From Candidatus Sulfopaludibacter sp. SbA3 (lineage in GTDB: Bacteria; Acidobacteriota; Terriglobia; 20CM-2-55-15): a stretch of DNA of 40,678 bases. Below, piece by piece: positions 28,208-38,546 of the stretch. Location of the stretch: contig CAMBFR010000024.1 of assembly GCA_945865815.1 (NCBI GenBank), positions 1 to 40,678 of the forward strand, read 5' to 3'. Position numbers and translations under genes: made by a program. Each line of letters starts with the position of its first letter. Within the stretch, counting starts at the first letter, position 1. A model generated the notes under the pieces. The model was not told the DNA's origin, did no database searches, and saw only the letters and a program-made list of their open reading frames with translations.

Positions 28208-28579
28208 CTACTCATGGCCCGCGTGCCTGTCAGCCGGCGCCGCCGCCGTGGCTTTACCGTCCGCGGCCGGACGCGCAGCTACGCCAATCCTCACCTCTTC
28301 CGCCGCAAACATTTTCATCTTCTCGTCCATCTTCGCGTCGATCACAACGCGAGTTCCGACCTTCAGTTCCGCGCCGGTGGCTGTTTTTTCGGCTTTCAGG
28401 TATTTCGTTGTCTTTCCCATCATGACCATGACGGATTTGCCGTCTTGTTGTTTTATCGTGACGTGATCTCCCTGAACGGCGGTAATCGTCCCCATGATGT
28501 GCGTGGCATCACCATGCGCCAAGAGCAGGACGCTTGATGTGAGGATCGTCAGTGAGCAAGCGATGAAATGTCTGAACAT
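28208..28579 (-). CDS. Secreted DUF5666-like small OB-fold protein with His-rich tail
   Basis: A 123-residue exported protein: signal peptide MFRHFIACSLTILTSSVLLLAHG, then a compact all-beta region (HIMGTITAVQGDHVTIKQQDG, GTRVVIDAKMDEKMKMFAAEEVRIG) like DUF5666 proteins, and an Ala-rich tail ending DRHAGHE. The His and Met residues fit metal binding, and the gene is last in the leftward copper-type cluster, 23 bases after the cytochrome gene. Binding of copper is inferred from context. Exact family assignment is uncertain. Confidence 0.65.
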   Translation of the reverse strand: MFRHFIACSLTILTSSVLLLAHGDATHIMGTITAVQGDHVTIKQQDGKSVMVMMGKTTKYLKAEKTATGAELKVGTRVVIDAKMDEKMKMFAAEEVRIGVAARPAADGKATAAAPADRHAGHE

Positions 28580-28602
28580 TGTGTTTTCTCCCTGGATTAA
28601 AG

Positions 28603-29220
28603 TCAGTCGTGTGTGTGCCCGGGCGCCGGCAGCGGGCTGTCGTCACCCTCCAGAAATCTGCGTATTGCTTCTTCTTCCTCCAACTCGTGAGCACTTTTCG
28701 GATTCATGCTCTTCATTTTCTCCAGCTCTTCGGGACTGATATTCGGCAGACGCCGGATAAAATGCACGAGCTTCCAACTGTCGAGATCCGGATCTCCGGC
28801 GGTTCCCACGCCAAAAGCGGGCATGCCGGTCAAACGGATTCCATTGTGAATGACGTAGAACAGTTCTCCATCCGTCATTTCCTGCGTATCAGGATGACGC
28901 ATATCCGGTGGCTTTGGGTAGAGCCCCTTTCCGATGGAGGTGTCCCCGCTGCCGTCGTTAGCGTGACAATAGGCGCAGTGGTCCGCGAAATGAGCCATTG
29001 CCTCGGCCACAACTTCTTCGGTGGCTGCAACGGGATTCTGCATCTCCTTCGCGATTCTGGGAATTGCCAGGCTTCGGACACGGCGCGCCACAAAAGTCTC
29101 GATTGCGGTGGGCTCTTCGCGCGCGCTGAATCCACGGCCTATGATCAGCCAGCCCGCAATCAGGATGCCCGCTATTATAGTGATGACGCTCGCTAGTGCA
29201 ACCCTGGTCCTAGCGGCCAT
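28603..29220 (-). CDS. Membrane-anchored cytochrome c
   Basis: A 205-residue class I-type cytochrome c. An N-terminal helix (VALASVITIIAGILIAGWLIIG) likely anchors it in the inner membrane. Haem attachment CAYCH is at 82-86, and Met133 in TGMPAF is the probable second ligand. DGELFYVIHNGIRLTGMP and DLDSWKLVHFIRRLP are typical of the single-haem domain. The C-terminal tail is charged and ends in GHTHD. It starts 3 bases after the DUF1775 gene, so it shares that operon. A role passing electrons from the copper oxidation system is plausible but unproven. Confidence 0.9.
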   Translation of the reverse strand: MAARTRVALASVITIIAGILIAGWLIIGRGFSAREEPTAIETFVARRVRSLAIPRIAKEMQNPVAATEEVVAEAMAHFADHCAYCHANDGSGDTSIGKGLYPKPPDMRHPDTQEMTDGELFYVIHNGIRLTGMPAFGVGTAGDPDLDSWKLVHFIRRLPNISPEELEKMKSMNPKSAHELEEEEAIRRFLEGDDSPLPAPGHTHD

Positions 29221-29223
29221 AGG

Positions 29224-29688
29224 CTATCCTTTCTTCTTTACCATCGTCACCGGACCGGGCGCCCTTGAACTTTCCGGTCCCGTCCATTCCGAGCGCGTGC
29301 CGTCCTCATAGATCTGGATTACTTTCCATTCAAGCTTCATTTCCATCGCCGGATTCCTGGCTTCGAAATAGAAGTCCCTATATTCCGCGAATGGGATTGA
29401 TCCTCCGCTCCACACAGCTCCTGTTATCCTGCCCTGCGTGTCTTTCTTCTGATCGATCCTCCAGCCAGGCGAGGCCTCGAGCGAGATCACACTTACCGCA
29501 ACCGGAAACTCGATCTCCAGCCGAACTGTCGGCGACTGCCTCTCGGTCGGAACCCGCATACTGTAACGTTCCGTAGCCCCCGTTGCAGCTTCGGTTGGGG
29601 AGATGCGAACGTGGCCGAAGGCCGAGGACGCGAGCACCAGCGCGGCAACGACTAAAAGGCAACTAATCCCTGGTTGACGAGTTTGCAT
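29224..29688 (-). CDS. YcnI-like copper-binding protein (DUF1775)
   Basis: A 154-residue exported protein. ATG at 29688 follows GGAGGG; a longer frame upstream has no signal. The signal peptide (MQTRQPGISCLLVVAALVLASSAFG) would be cut to leave His26 as the mature first residue, as in YcnI, where an N-terminal His together with a Glu and Trp binds copper. RYSMRVPTERQSPTVRLEIEFP, SPGWRIDQ and GAVWSGGSIPFAEYRDFYFEARNP fit DUF1775. No C-terminal anchor is evident. The start overlaps the upstream gene by 26 bases and the cytochrome gene follows after 3 bases. Copper role inferred from family and context. Confidence 0.82.
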   Translation of the reverse strand: MQTRQPGISCLLVVAALVLASSAFGHVRISPTEAATGATERYSMRVPTERQSPTVRLEIEFPVAVSVISLEASPGWRIDQKKDTQGRITGAVWSGGSIPFAEYRDFYFEARNPAMEMKLEWKVIQIYEDGTRSEWTGPESSRAPGPVTMVKKKG

Positions 29689-30124
29689 TGTTCCCTCCAA
29701 CGTTGGTTGTAAATACGTGATCGCCGTTCTCTCCTGCAATCTGGATTTTCACAACTTCATAGCTGCGGTCCCGCTGCTGCTTGGCGAGGAACGTCGAATT
29801 CTTAACCTGCTCAGAAGTTGACAAAAAGCGGCCGGCAAACTCGATCATGGAAAGTTGAGATGCAGCCTTCTTCTTGTCCACTTCGGCAAGGACAAACATG
29901 TGCCTGTCATCCTCCGGCCGGTGAATCAGCATGTATTTGCCGCGTCTGACAAGCTGATTCCCAATCTTGACGTCGGTTCCGATGCTCACTTCGCCGGTCT
30001 TGCTGACTTTGAAGGTTCTATCCGTTGGGCCCTCCCCATGATCACCGTCGTGGAGGGCTGTGAGCGATCCAGTACCAAGGAAAGCGGCGCATAGAGCGAT
30101 ACCGGCGCTTCGATTGAATCTCAT
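29663..30124 (-). CDS. Secreted protein of unknown family, paralogue of 33518-33982
   Basis: A 153-residue exported protein: signal peptide MRFNRSAGIALCAAFLGTGSLTA, then HDGDHGEG, which could bind metal. The body (FKVSKTGEVSIGTDVKIGNQ, VRRGKYMLIHRPEDD) and the end YEVVKIQIAGENGDHVF resemble the protein encoded at 33518-33982, showing an in-cluster duplication. No known domain was recognised. Its ATG overlaps the TolC-type stop (ATGA) and its stop overlaps the DUF1775 gene, so expression is coupled to both. Function unknown; periplasmic role in copper handling inferred from context. Confidence 0.75.
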   Translation of the reverse strand: MRFNRSAGIALCAAFLGTGSLTALHDGDHGEGPTDRTFKVSKTGEVSIGTDVKIGNQLVRRGKYMLIHRPEDDRHMFVLAEVDKKKAASQLSMIEFAGRFLSTSEQVKNSTFLAKQQRDRSYEVVKIQIAGENGDHVFTTNVGGNNANSSTRD

Positions 30125-31482
30125 GATGTCTCCTCGATCTCCAGATTAACACTGTCCGTGGAGGGATTTTCAGAACCAAGTCCAGGCGCGCTCAAACCGC
30201 CCTGCAGGAGCAAACTCTGAATGTCTACGGCTCGACGCCACATGCCGATCAACGCGTTGTCATAGTCTTCCTGAAGCTGCAGCAACGTTCGTTGAGCGAT
30301 GAGCGCCTGCGGATACGCGGCGGCCATCTGGCGGAAACCTGCCAGATAAAGATCGTAGGCGCGCCTTGCGCGAGGCAACATTTCATTACGGTATCGCTCA
30401 ACGATGTTTCGCGTGTCCTGGTAATTTCGGAATGCGGCAGCCAGGCGGCTCCGCAGTGACAACTGTACCCGCTCAATTTCCCGTTGCGCCCGCGTGAGGT
30501 TGCCGCGGGCGGCCTCAACGTTCCCCTGATTGCGGTTGAACAGGGGAATTTCGACTCCAATGGCGAACGACCCCTGTCTGCCGATGGCGCGCGGGCCGGG
30601 TTCAAGGCGCTCGCGGTTATAGTGTGCGCCCGCCTGGATCTGGAGATTGGGAATGGATTGCCGCTGCGCTCGTCTTACCGCATATTCGGCTCTGACAATA
30701 TCGGCGTTTGCCGCCTTTACTTCAGGACTATCGCGCAGAAGGGCCGCCATGGCAGATCCCAGGTCGAGTACGGGAATCTGCTCAAGGTCGCCGGCGAGAG
30801 GCTGCATTTCGAGAGAGCCATCGCCGGCGGCGGACGCAAGTTGACTCCAAACCTGCTGTTGCTCATTCCGGGCTGCGATCACGGCTAATTCGGCGCGCTG
30901 CTGCTCGATCTCGATTTCCAGCACGTCCGGCAAGTCCGCCTGACCCACATTACGCAGTTGGCCCGACGTGACAACGGCCTCCTCAACAAGAGCCGCGAGC
31001 CTTGTGCGTACTTCCAATTTCCGTTGAACAGCCAACGCCTGATAGAACAGTGCGCGGACTGTATTCAGAACTCTGAGTTTTTGCGCTTCCGCCTGCGCTT
31101 CCGCCTTGATGATTTCCTGTTCCGCTATTCTCTTGTTCAGCGCCAGCTTTCCCCCAAGCACAATGTCCTGCTGGACGATGAGACCGTACTCACCGCCATT
31201 GATGACGGGACCGTTGCTGATTTCGTCACCCGTAACCGCGACGGTTGGGTTCGGGTAAGCGCCTGCTTGACGGCGCCTGCCCCGGGCCGACTGAATCGCC
31301 GCTTCAGCCTGCGCCAGCGTGGGATTCTTTTCGAGCGCGATCCTTTCGATGTCTTCGAGGCGAAGGGCGGCGCCGGCAGGGACCTGGACTCCAGGAGAAT
31401 TCTGAGCGGCAGAAACCGAAAACGGCATAGCCAGAAGTATCAGGAAAGCAGCCGGCCCGATGGTTGGTGATAGACGATTCAC
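30121..31482 (-). CDS. TolC-family outer-membrane factor (CusC/CzcC-like)
   Basis: A 453-residue protein with a signal peptide (MNRLSPTIGPAAFLILLAMPFSVSA) and the outer-membrane-factor repeat: LRLEDIERIALEKNPTLAQAEAAI, GRRRQAGAYPNPTVAVTGDE, then SPEVKAANADIVRAEYAVRRA and GVEIPLFNRNQGNVEAARGN. The PNP and IPLFNRNQG blocks are common in heavy-metal CzcC/CusC members. The expected partners, a membrane-fusion protein and an RND pump, are absent. ATGA overlaps join it to the multicopper oxidase before it and the secreted protein after it. It could pair with a pump encoded elsewhere. Confidence 0.92.
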   Translation of the reverse strand: MNRLSPTIGPAAFLILLAMPFSVSAAQNSPGVQVPAGAALRLEDIERIALEKNPTLAQAEAAIQSARGRRRQAGAYPNPTVAVTGDEISNGPVINGGEYGLIVQQDIVLGGKLALNKRIAEQEIIKAEAQAEAQKLRVLNTVRALFYQALAVQRKLEVRTRLAALVEEAVVTSGQLRNVGQADLPDVLEIEIEQQRAELAVIAARNEQQQVWSQLASAAGDGSLEMQPLAGDLEQIPVLDLGSAMAALLRDSPEVKAANADIVRAEYAVRRAQRQSIPNLQIQAGAHYNRERLEPGPRAIGRQGSFAIGVEIPLFNRNQGNVEAARGNLTRAQREIERVQLSLRSRLAAAFRNYQDTRNIVERYRNEMLPRARRAYDLYLAGFRQMAAAYPQALIAQRTLLQLQEDYDNALIGMWRRAVDIQSLLLQGGLSAPGLGSENPSTDSVNLEIEETS

Positions 31483-32903
31483 TGCCCAGCCTCCTTGCTC
31501 TTTTTCATTTCCATGATCTTGTCGTAGAGATCATGAGGCAGAACGCGTACGAGGGTCATCATTCCCATCATGGAACCCGTCCAGTCTTTCCGCAAGCCGA
31601 ACACTTCCGGCTTGTTGGCTACTACCTGGTCCATCGGCATCCACATGTCCTGAGGAAATCCCGGGACCTTCTGAGCGTTTTCACTGGTCATGCCGGGCAT
31701 GACGTGACCTTCATGTTCTGCTGATGGCGGGTTTTGCGGCTGCGCCGATACGGATTGGAGCGGGCCAGACGCGGCCATCAGGCCAGCTGCGCCGCCGACC
31801 AATGGCGAGGCAGGCCGTTCGCGATCCGCCGCCAGGCCGAGGCCTCGCCCGAGGCCCGGACCAAGATCCTCATCCAAAGCATTGCCCTGGCGGACGATTC
31901 CCATACCTTCTTCCATTCCAAGGCCCGTGCGGGAGCCCGCGCCGAGGTGCGACATCGGTCCGACCATCGACACCATCTGGTTCATCATGTGATGGGGCAA
32001 ATGGCAGTGCAGCATCCAGTCCCCGATATATTTCGCCTCGAATTCAACGTCGCGAGCCTGCGCCACTCCGACGAGCACCGTGTTTTGCCGAACCCACGCC
32101 GACTCGGGAATCCGTCCACTTTCCGTGCCGGTGACAAGGAACTGGTTTCCATGGAGGTGCATCGGATGGTGGTCCATGCCAAGATTCACAAAGCGGATTC
32201 GGACTCGTTCGCCATGCTTCACGAGCATCGGCGTCGTCGCGGGACCTGCCTTACCATTGATCGTCAACCAGTTGAATTCCATCGAAAGCGTGTTGGGTAC
32301 CGTGTTGTTCGGGAGGAGCGCCCATTCCTGAAGAACGAGGCCGAAGTCGCGGTCCACTCGCGGCCTGTGGGCGTCTTTGGGATGGATGATGAACAATCCG
32401 ATCATCCCCATCATTTCCTGCATGGCGAAATGGGAGTGGTAGAAGTACGTTCCGTTCTGTTGGACCGTGAACTCGTACGTGTGCGCGCCGCCTGGTGGAA
32501 CCGGGTCCTGGCCGAGACCGGGCACGCCATCCTGGTCCATCGGAATTTCCAGACCGTGCCAGTGAACGGTGGTCATTTCAGGCAGGTTGTTGTGAAACAT
32601 CACGCGCACCCTGTCGCCCTCGTTCACCTCGATGGTCGGCCCTGGCACGCTTCCGTTGTAACCCCACGCATCGACCACTTTTCCGGGGAGGAATTCTGTT
32701 CGCACGACCTCCGATATGAGGTGGAATTCCTTAACGCCGTCCACCACTTGAAACGGAAGCTTGGGCAGATCCGGCGCCTCGAAGCCGCCGCTGGGCGTGT
32801 TCTCTGTTTCCGCTTGTTCCTGCGCTCCGCCCGCGCGGGGCAGTATAAATAATCCTGTTCCCAGCGATGCCAGTTTCGCGATGAAACTTCTCCTGTCACT
32901 CAT
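31479..32903 (-). CDS. Tat-exported multicopper oxidase
   Basis: A 474-residue copper protein. The N-terminus MSDRRSFIAKLASLG is a Tat-type signal. Copper motifs are in order: HWHG (114-117), HSH (156-158), HPMHLHG (246-252) and HCHLPHH (299-305) with type-1 Cys300. The oxidase core ends near 320; the following 150 residues are Gly/Met-rich and not recognised, with HEGHVMPGM and MDQVV. The core length is shorter than three-domain CopA/CueO, closer to two-domain types. It likely oxidises Cu(I) or phenolics in the periplasm. ATG follows AGGAG; the stop overlaps the TolC-type start. Confidence 0.92.
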   Translation of the reverse strand: MSDRRSFIAKLASLGTGLFILPRAGGAQEQAETENTPSGGFEAPDLPKLPFQVVDGVKEFHLISEVVRTEFLPGKVVDAWGYNGSVPGPTIEVNEGDRVRVMFHNNLPEMTTVHWHGLEIPMDQDGVPGLGQDPVPPGGAHTYEFTVQQNGTYFYHSHFAMQEMMGMIGLFIIHPKDAHRPRVDRDFGLVLQEWALLPNNTVPNTLSMEFNWLTINGKAGPATTPMLVKHGERVRIRFVNLGMDHHPMHLHGNQFLVTGTESGRIPESAWVRQNTVLVGVAQARDVEFEAKYIGDWMLHCHLPHHMMNQMVSMVGPMSHLGAGSRTGLGMEEGMGIVRQGNALDEDLGPGLGRGLGLAADRERPASPLVGGAAGLMAASGPLQSVSAQPQNPPSAEHEGHVMPGMTSENAQKVPGFPQDMWMPMDQVVANKPEVFGLRKDWTGSMMGMMTLVRVLPHDLYDKIMEMKKSKEAGQ

Positions 32904-32966: not shown

Positions 32967-33326
32967 TCAAATTCGGAGTACGAGTTTCAGCGCACCTGGA
33001 GGCGTCGAGCTTTGAAGAGGGATGTCCGCACTGAACCATGCCTCCACTGGGACATATTGAAACTGGACGGCTGGAATAATCCATTGGAGAGCAGTCAGTA
33101 GCGAGGCGCACTTGACAGCCGGCCCGCCCTTGGACTCGATTGCCGGCCCCTGACCGCACGAATCGGAGTCATGATTCGAGGGTTTCTCGTTGACCGGAGA
33201 GTTGGCTCCTTCGTGACACGCCGGCTTCGCACTCGCAGGCGCCGCGACATCCGATGCCGCATAGAAATGGGTGGCCACGCACGAGCCCCCGCATTGCAGG
33301 TGCATTAGAATCACGGCGATGAGCAC
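32967..33326 (-). CDS. Small secreted Cys/His-rich protein, unknown
   Basis: A 119-residue protein with a short hydrophobic N-terminus (LIAVILMHL) followed by cysteines at 12, 16, 37, 57 and 73 in patterns QCGGSC, ACHEG and SCGQGPAIESK. Similar small proteins occur beside copper resistance genes, from memory, but no named family was assigned. Start GTG at 33326 is uncertain because no ribosome site is close; the frame is open further upstream. It is the first gene of the leftward copper operon, 63 bases before the multicopper oxidase, and faces the operator-like palindromes. Confidence 0.6.
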   Translation of the reverse strand: MLIAVILMHLQCGGSCVATHFYAASDVAAPASAKPACHEGANSPVNEKPSNHDSDSCGQGPAIESKGGPAVKCASLLTALQWIIPAVQFQYVPVEAWFSADIPLQSSTPPGALKLVLRI

Positions 33327-33422: not shown

Positions 33423-33441
33423 TTGCGACGGATTGTCGCAA
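33423..33441. promoter_or_regulatory. Operator-like palindrome O1, TTGCGACGGATTGTCGCAA
   Basis: A 7-5-7 inverted repeat with perfect arms. Its core GCGAC-N5-GTCGC recurs 61 bases further right at 33486. It lies about 45 bases upstream of the likely leftward promoter (TATGCT at 33378-33373), in the divergent region of the copper-type cluster. Confidence 0.6.
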
Positions 33442-33485
33442 CCTTCACTTCGGGCGGTGGCACAAGGATTGCATAACCTGGATTG

Positions 33486-33500
33486 GCGACGAATCGTCGC
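33486..33500. promoter_or_regulatory. Operator-like palindrome O2, GCGACGAATCGTCGC
   Basis: A 7-1-7 perfect inverted repeat sharing the GCGAC-N5-GTCGC core with O1. It sits 17 bases before the ATG at 33518, just upstream of the AGGGAGA ribosome site, where a bound repressor would block the rightward operon. Confidence 0.6.
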
Positions 33501-33517: not shown

Positions 33518-33982
33518 ATGAGAAACATTCTTGGGGCTTCAACATGGATCGCGGTAGTGGCGGGTTTACTGTTGGGTGCAGGCGTTCTAATCGCCGCGCA
33601 GAACCAACACAAGACCACGCCGATGGCGGTGGGACCGAAAGGTGACGTCGTATTCACCACTGAAACCAGGGTCGCCGATATAACGCTAAAGCCGGGACGA
33701 TACTACCTAGAGCATCGCGTCGAAGGCACGCTTCAGCCGAGAAGAGTGGCAGGTCATTATCTTCACTTCACGCAAGTGACGGCGGAGGAACACCAAAAGC
33801 GCCAGGGCGCTCGCAATGCGATAGGTGAATACACGGTGGCTCATCCCGGAGAAATCCAGTGCGAGTTGGAGGCGCTGACAAAAAAGGCGAAAAAAACCAC
33901 AGTCTTTACGGCGACAGAAAATGGGGTCCACCGCATCACACGAATTGAGATCGCGGGAGAAGATGTGGCCCACATCTTTTGA
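33518..33982 (+). CDS. Secreted protein of unknown family, paralogue of 29663-30124
   Basis: A 154-residue exported protein: signal peptide MRNILGASTWIAVVAGLLLGAGVLIAAQ, then VGPKGDVVFTTETRVADITL, LKPGRYYLEHRVEG and HRITRIEIAGEDVAHIF. These align with the protein at 29663-30124, including the closing V/H-x-I-x-x-I-x-IAGE-x-x-x-H-[VI]-F pattern, though identity elsewhere is low. A Lys/Glu-rich insert and KAKKTTVF precede the end. Family unknown. Start ATG follows AGGGAGA. It is the first rightward gene of the divergent copper region, directly behind palindrome O2. Confidence 0.8.
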   Translation: MRNILGASTWIAVVAGLLLGAGVLIAAQNQHKTTPMAVGPKGDVVFTTETRVADITLKPGRYYLEHRVEGTLQPRRVAGHYLHFTQVTAEEHQKRQGARNAIGEYTVAHPGEIQCELEALTKKAKKTTVFTATENGVHRITRIEIAGEDVAHIF

Positions 33983-34024: not shown

Positions 34025-34069
34025 TCGGTACCTCCCGGTGTTGTTGCAGGCTGGCCCGAGGAGGTTGTG

Positions 34070-34945
34070 ATGAGAGCGTTCGTTCTGTCATGTTGTTCAA
34101 TATTGCTGCTTGCCGTGGCGGCGCGTGGTGAAGAACGGCAATTTGTGCTCGTTGCGTCGGTTACACCGTGGCAAATCGCCCCAGGGCGGACCGTCCTCGC
34201 CTACTCGTATAACCAGACAGTGCCGGGCCCGGAAATTCGCGGCAACGCTGGAGATGTTTTTCGCATCACGCTCGTGAACAACTTGCCGGTTTCAACGACG
34301 ATTCACTGGCACGGGGTGCCGGTTCCAAACGGCATGGACGGTGTGCCTGGGGTCACAGGCCCCGTGGTGTATCCCGGGCAAACCTTTATCTATGTCTTCC
34401 AGGCTCCTTCACCTGGAACCTACTGGTACCACCCACACGCGAACAGCGGGAGCCAGATCTCGCTTGGGCTTTACGGCCTGTTGATTGTTGACCCTCCCGC
34501 AGACGCGCCTCGTAAATATGACCGTGAAGTTTCCATGGTCATCGGTGAGTACGGAGGCATGATGGGCGGCGGAATGACTGGAAGGGACGGAATGGGCGGG
34601 ATGGCCGGCAGCGCCGCAAGCACCCTTCTGATAAACGGCAAAACGGCTCCCGCCATTCCCGATTTGCGCGTCCGCTACGGCGAACGCGTTCTATTCCGGA
34701 TGGTCAACACGGGCAATATGGTCCACCCCATGCATGTTCACGGCCTCCATTGGACCATCGTGGCGACCGATGGATTCGAGCTGCAGGCGCCATATAAGAA
34801 GGATACGGTTCCGATCAACGCCGGGGAACGTTATGACGGCATTCTCGAAGCCGACAACCAGGGAGTTTGGATGGTCCACTGCCACAATCTGGACCACGTT
34901 ACCGATTCACCCACAGGGCTCGTCTTCAACCTTGTCGTGGAGTAA
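34070..34945 (+). CDS. Two-domain multicopper oxidase with Met-rich loop
   Basis: A 291-residue exported copper oxidase. ATG at 34070 follows GAGGAGG. Signal peptide is MRAFVLSCCSILLLAVAARG. Copper motifs: HWHG (79-82), HPH (121-123), HPMHVHGLH (219-227) and HCHNLDH (270-276) with type-1 Cys271. Residues 163-178, GGMMGGGMTGRDGMGG, form a Met-rich loop like those that feed Cu(I) in cuprous oxidases. The length fits two-domain, trimer-forming oxidases. The substrate may be Cu(I), but other reductants are possible. The P-loop ATPase follows after 15 bases, so they probably share a transcript. Confidence 0.92.
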   Translation: MRAFVLSCCSILLLAVAARGEERQFVLVASVTPWQIAPGRTVLAYSYNQTVPGPEIRGNAGDVFRITLVNNLPVSTTIHWHGVPVPNGMDGVPGVTGPVVYPGQTFIYVFQAPSPGTYWYHPHANSGSQISLGLYGLLIVDPPADAPRKYDREVSMVIGEYGGMMGGGMTGRDGMGGMAGSAASTLLINGKTAPAIPDLRVRYGERVLFRMVNTGNMVHPMHVHGLHWTIVATDGFELQAPYKKDTVPINAGERYDGILEADNQGVWMVHCHNLDHVTDSPTGLVFNLVVE

Positions 34946-37661: not shown

Positions 37662-38546
37662 TTACCGCTTAACGCTCTGCAAGAACTGCAGCAGCGTTTC
37701 CGCAGTTGGGGTGAGCAACTTCTGCCTCCTGTGAATGATCCCGATCGGGCGTACGAGTTCCCGCATTTCCAGTGGAATTGCCGCGATCATGCCCGCTTCC
37801 ACCTCGTGCGTCACGCTTGGCTTTGGCAGAATGCTGACGCCCGCTTGAATCGCAATCGCCTGCTTGATGGTCTCGATATTGTCGAATTCCATGGCGACAT
37901 TCACTCTCACGCCACGCTGACGCAACGCTTTGTCGATGGCCTTCCGGATCGGGAGGCTGCCCTCAAACGCCACGAATTTATCGGCTTCAAAATCTTTCGG
38001 CGAAACAATCCTGCGTCTGGCCAGGCGGTGCGACCGGTGACAGACGAATACCATCGGCTCGGAATGCCACGGAATGACAGTCAGGGAACGGTGCGGTTGC
38101 GGAAACGAAAGAATCCCGAGGTCTGCTTCGTCTCCAATCACGGCATCCACAACGGCATCGGGGTGCAGATAGGCCAACCGGATCTTCGCCTGTGGATAGC
38201 GGGTTGTGAACTGCTGGGTGTAGAAACCCATGTCGTGAAGACCAACTGAATAAATCACGGCGACGCGGACCGACCCGTTCACAAGCGTACGCTGCGCGGT
38301 TATTTCGGCCTTGGCCTTCTCGAAGTCATCAAGCAGCGTCAGGCATGCGTCAAAGAATTTTTTGCCTTCGGGCGTGACCATGAATGGCCGCTTTGTGCGG
38401 TCTATCAGCTGTACACCAAGCTCATCTTCAAGTTGGCGGACAGCCTGGCTCGCTGCCGATTGGGAGATGCGGTGCGCTGCCGCGCCAAGAGAAAAGCTGG
38501 AAGAGCGGATGACATCGCAATAGAGGCTGAGCGTATCGAGGTTCAT
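37662..38546 (-). CDS. LysR-family transcriptional regulator
   Basis: A 294-residue regulator of normal LysR length. The winged helix-turn-helix occupies residues 1-60 (SFSLGAAAHRISQSAASQAVRQLEDELGVQLIDRT). The effector domain follows from about 90 (GSVRVAVIYSVGLHDMGFY, DLGILSFP, IKQAIAIQAGVSILPK). The effector is unknown. It resembles nitrogen- or sulfur-type LysR proteins only loosely. It lies downstream of the beta-barrel and ammonium transporter genes on the same strand, separated by a perfect palindrome, and may control them or nearby genes. Convergent with the protease region. Confidence 0.9.
   Translation of the reverse strand: MNLDTLSLYCDVIRSSSFSLGAAAHRISQSAASQAVRQLEDELGVQLIDRTKRPFMVTPEGKKFFDACLTLLDDFEKAKAEITAQRTLVNGSVRVAVIYSVGLHDMGFYTQQFTTRYPQAKIRLAYLHPDAVVDAVIGDEADLGILSFPQPHRSLTVIPWHSEPMVFVCHRSHRLARRRIVSPKDFEADKFVAFEGSLPIRKAIDKALRQRGVRVNVAMEFDNIETIKQAIAIQAGVSILPKPSVTHEVEAGMIAAIPLEMRELVRPIGIIHRRQKLLTPTAETLLQFLQSVKR

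Follow-up and report, generated by a model that had tools for sequence, protein, structure and literature searches.

The window, i.e., the whole stretch of 40,678 nucleotides that was analysed, carries a copper cluster whose two halves diverge from an intergenic region of 191 bp. The rightward operon begins with a gene for a 154-aa protein without a Pfam match (33518..33982, + strand; 86% identical in the sister genome G001), and its second gene encodes a multicopper oxidase (34067..34945, + strand; Cu-oxidase_3, E 1.5e-35). In the leftward operon, the first gene encodes a small protein (32967..33326, - strand), the reading frame of which was also found in G001, and a further multicopper oxidase is encoded at 31479..32903 (- strand; Cu-oxidase_3, E 1.6e-40). 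Pfam matches in the remainder of the leftward cluster (28208..31482, - strand) identified an outer membrane efflux protein, a DUF1775 protein and a cytochrome c-type protein, which are accompanied by small proteins. About 3 kb past the copper cluster, a LysR-type regulator gene (37662-38546, - strand) is located near porin-like and ammonium-transporter-like genes. It was rejected as a partner of the motif described below, as the motif is absent from its vicinity.

Two palindromes of the form GCGAC-N5-GTCGC are present in the divergent intergenic region at 33425-33439 and 33486-33500, with their starts 61 bases apart, in agreement with the original prediction. Site 1 (33423..33441, no strand assigned), the proposed enhancer site, reads TTGCGAC-GGATT-GTCGCAA and has 7-bp arms around N5. 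Site 2 (33486..33500, no strand assigned) is a perfect 7-1-7 palindrome, GCGACGA-A-TCGTCGC, and both sites match the motif exactly. As also described before, site 2 adjoins the ribosome site of the rightward operon, with AGGGAG just 3' of it and the ATG at 33518, 17 bp past its end. Across the entire window, GCGACNNNNNGTCGC has two exact copies and none besides these. At least one exact site was obtained in 7 of 20,000 dinucleotide shuffles of the 191-bp region and two sites in 0 of 20,000, while shuffles of the whole window contained 0.15 exact sites on average. The palindromes resemble operators of a regulator encoded outside the cluster, as had been proposed. Conservation was assessed in a single comparison with one sister genome (G001, 81% complete), in which site 1 is largely kept with one arm change (GTGACGAATTGTCGC) and site 2 is no longer symmetrical (GCGGCGAACCGTAGC). 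Conservation in the orthologous divergent region was thus borne out for site 1, but not for the palindrome of site 2.

Between the two sites lies a feature that the original prediction overlooked. The sequence TGGCACAAGGATTGCA (33458..33473, + strand) is a near-perfect -24/-12 box of the GG-N10-GC type that matches 11 of 12 consensus positions and is directed into the rightward operon. Boxes scoring as high occur twice in 200 kb of this genome, TGGCACAAGGATTGCA included; when the intergenic region was shuffled, 9 of 4000 sequences reached its score. All 16 of its positions are identical in G001, as compared to 7 of 16 for the 16 bases immediately upstream. The assignment of the putative promoter to the sigma-54 class is well supported, and RpoN is encoded in the genome (three RpoN domains in L006:138-1697). 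From the position of the box, transcription is predicted to start at about 33484, which places the centre of site 1 at about -52 and the beginning of site 2 about 2 bases past the start.

Site 2 may serve as a further binding site of the activator, may exert repression once it is occupied, or may encode a hairpin at the 5' end of the RNA. On the last reading, site 1 would be the sole operator, and site 2 would be the DNA of a stem-loop by which the rightward transcript is protected or its translation tuned; this is considered rather unlikely. The foot of the hairpin coincides with the predicted start, and a hairpin folds in both genomes despite the differing sequence (-11.3 and -12.8 kcal/mol; z -1.8 and -1.9). 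However, these z-scores are weak, the predicted hairpins of the two genomes pair different bases, and site 2 of the window is an exact match to the DNA motif.

The distribution of the motif was determined by pattern searches of the whole genome and in 583 kb of fetched sequence. The bare form GCGAC-N5-GTCGC was rejected as a genome-wide signal, with 10 exact copies as compared to 24 for the reversed-pattern control and 7 of the 10 inside genes. The three intergenic exact copies have a common centre, GCGACRRATYGTCGC, and this refined form was counted three times in the genome, always intergenic, and not at all in the control. Another refined form with free outer arm bases, YGACRRATYGTCG, occurs eight times as compared to two control matches, an enrichment that is descriptive and no independent test because the pattern was drawn from the sites on which it is counted. 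Three of these eight sites are coding and five are located in promoter regions, namely two in the window and one each upstream of a cytochrome oxidase (cox) operon (C40), upstream of an operon that encodes a DUF6644 membrane protein (C48) and in a further divergent region (C20). As for the frequency of the motif, the bare form is about as common as expected at random, which speaks against the original prediction; for the refined form, this is not the case. In 150 relatives, the exact refined motif was found at 28 sites outside this genome as compared to 9 control matches, mostly within open reading frames. A relaxed form of the motif was absent from the fetched stretches around distant homologues (L030-L034) of the 154-aa protein.

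The arrangement of site and box was found to recur. A sigma-54-like box 15-220 bp downstream of the site is present in four of four promoter regions, as compared to 1 of 34 coding-site controls. The boxes score 11 of 12 in the window and at C48, 10 at C20 and 9 at the cox operon, where the box is weak. The spacing from site to box is 111 bp at the cox operon, 110 bp at the orthologous cox operon of the relative G003 and 110 bp at C48. In comparison, site 1 of the window is nearer to its promoter, and site 2 is downstream of the start. The site at the cox operon (COX2, E 3.4e-14) has an orthologous copy in G001, where it again adjoins the DUF6152-like gene, and a diverged copy in G003. Allowing up to two mismatches, the stretches with cox operons from other family members (L082-L087) gave a single site, which is distant from the cox genes; these operons do not test the motif because they are of a different cox type (60-64% identical). 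A matrix derived from the sites detected no additional strong site-plus-box combination in the 583 kb of fetched sequence. One site of interest among the 28 in relatives, located where a multihaem cytochrome gene begins (G111; L088:4924), was not counted as support, as its sigma-54-like box is upstream and not downstream.

At C48, the operon behind the palindrome and a good sigma-54 box (L213:1119-3335) comprises genes for DUF6644-type membrane proteins and a desaturase-like gene. The site at C20 lies between a kinase/response-regulator gene pair and divergent genes for a multihaem cytochrome and an MtrB/PioB porin (L155:9652-12895; porin E 3.6e-118), which likely form an outer-membrane electron conduit. 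Sharing of the sites by four promoter regions points to one common activator. This is probably an enhancer-binding protein of the two-component type whose gene is located in another part of the genome. That the copper promoter is under sigma-54 control by some enhancer-binding protein appears quite probable.

The C20 response regulator (L155:6805-8214) combines a receiver domain (PF00072), a sigma-54 AAA+ domain (PF00158) and an HTH_8 domain (PF02954), and the GAFTGA loop is visible in its translation. Its divergent region carries GTGACAAATTGTCGT, which shows differences from the two sites of the window in the outer arms, together with a sigma-54-like box in each direction. The orthologue in G003 (85%) adjoins a cytochrome c gene, and a weaker site, GTGACTTCTTGTCGC, is present upstream of its kinase gene. 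Searches of the genome for Fis-type HTH domains yielded nine proteins of the enhancer-binding type and a single standalone Fis-like protein. The latter has 85 aa and is encoded beside a purC-like gene (L133:1477-1734). Around the other eight enhancer-binding-protein genes, the fetched sequence contained no intergenic motif, and matches with up to two mismatches occurred only inside open reading frames.

The sensor kinase at C20 (L155:8211-9254) is without a Pfam sensor domain. Near its N-terminus, a C-x-G-C-M-H-E-G motif is conserved between this kinase and that encoded at L189:7001-8059 (CLGCMHEG and CMGCMHEG), and this is a possible metal or redox sensing site. The kinase alignment, when used to scan GTDB contigs, matched one close relative (70%), on a contig of an acidobacterial MAG, and otherwise distant kinases. 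Distant relatives of the C20 response regulator (53-54%) end clusters of 9- and 16-haem cytochromes in L190 (G032) and L191 (G025). In these two stretches, a conserved GCGACAATTTGTCCG, about 5.5 kb away, precedes an iron-sulphur/membrane-protein operon.

On the basis of site, box and gene linkage, we favour with moderate confidence the view that the palindromes are enhancer sites for an activator of the NtrC family, most likely that of the C20 kinase/activator pair. The Fis-fold helix-turn-helix dimer of this enhancer-binding protein would read GCGAC-N5-GTCGC, and the phosphorylated and bound activator would drive sigma-54 RNA polymerase at TGGCACAAGGATTGCA, switching on the rightward copper operon. 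The cytochrome oxidase, DUF6644 membrane-protein and MtrB/PioB-type conduit operons would be further targets of this activator. The activator would most likely be the C20 response regulator, encoded with its sensor kinase divergently from the conduit genes, and the signal may be copper or redox. Given sigma-54 control, the C20 regulator is a fairly probable candidate for the activator; this assignment is drawn from linkage, because in G001, where site 1 and the cox site are kept, the search for a C20 orthologue was negative (best E 1.2e-100 as compared to 1.4e-259 in G003).

Another of the nine enhancer-binding-type proteins of this genome might bind the enhancer sites instead, which is held to be unlikely. 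The retention of site 1 and the cox site in G001, in spite of the C20 orthologue not being detected, would fit such an activator. However, G001 is just 81% complete, and among the retrieved neighbourhoods only that of the C20 gene pair has an intergenic motif.

Binding of the sites by a redox response regulator of the RegA/PrrA type, or by the standalone Fis-like protein, is considered very unlikely. The RegA site found by ChIP at the cbb3 oxidase genes of R. capsulatus is GCGACCGTTCGTCGC, i.e., a nearly identical palindrome with the same arms at a cytochrome oxidase operon, and the RegB/RegA (PrrBA) system of Rhodobacter further resembles the one proposed here in its Fis-type DNA-binding domain and its redox and respiratory targets (PMC5359404). 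The standalone Fis-like protein is likewise encoded in the genome analysed. In contrast, no RegA or RegB above the family cut-off was found there (best 71/250 and 84/350 bits, respectively). RegA is without an AAA+ sigma-54 domain, and neither RegA nor the Fis-like protein explains the sigma-54 boxes, because such boxes need an AAA+ activator. Hardly any credence is given to a repressor of the BlaI/MecI/CopY type, the analogy drawn in the original prediction: one BlaI-family protein is encoded (E 1.4e-23), but its gene, the only one of this family, is unlinked on another contig (C33) with no good motif match nearby, known CopY/BlaI operators are even-length palindromes of the TACA type, and the sigma-54 boxes would be left unexplained.

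For control by an NtrC-family activator, two systems of Myxococcus xanthus offer comparisons. NmpR binds GCGCA-N5-TGCGC and regulates an oxygen-utilisation regulon, and the 5-5-5 geometry of such palindromes has been described as typical of NtrC-like regulators (PMC11841059). NmpR and the system proposed here are alike in having 5-bp arms around N5 upstream of sigma-54 promoters, respiratory targets and two-component control, but differ in the arm sequence; moreover, NmpR sites are paired upstream of the promoter, usually 14-15 bp apart (PMC11841059), whereas the sites of the window flank the promoter at a distance of 61 bp. CorSR exerts two-component sigma-54 control over a copper cluster with a multicopper oxidase among its genes (PMC3707914). 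It is encoded within its own cluster and CorS has a periplasmic sensor (PMC3707914), whereas the cluster described here is without a regulator and the candidate C20 kinase is without a recognised sensor domain.

No sigma-54 regulon of Acidobacteria was found in searches of open-licence papers. We tentatively suggest that an undescribed regulon of this kind may exist, in which one activator and its sensor kinase, the latter with a CxxCMH motif at the N-terminus, would control a terminal oxidase and an outer-membrane electron conduit together with periplasmic copper oxidases. The analysis provides a testable promoter and a testable candidate regulator for a copper cluster that has no regulator of its own. 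If the proposed regulon is real, it would couple the supply of copper to electron flow, both respiratory and extracellular, and the prediction is that an MtrB/PioB-type conduit would be switched in concert with oxygen respiration and copper handling in this uncultured acidobacterial lineage.
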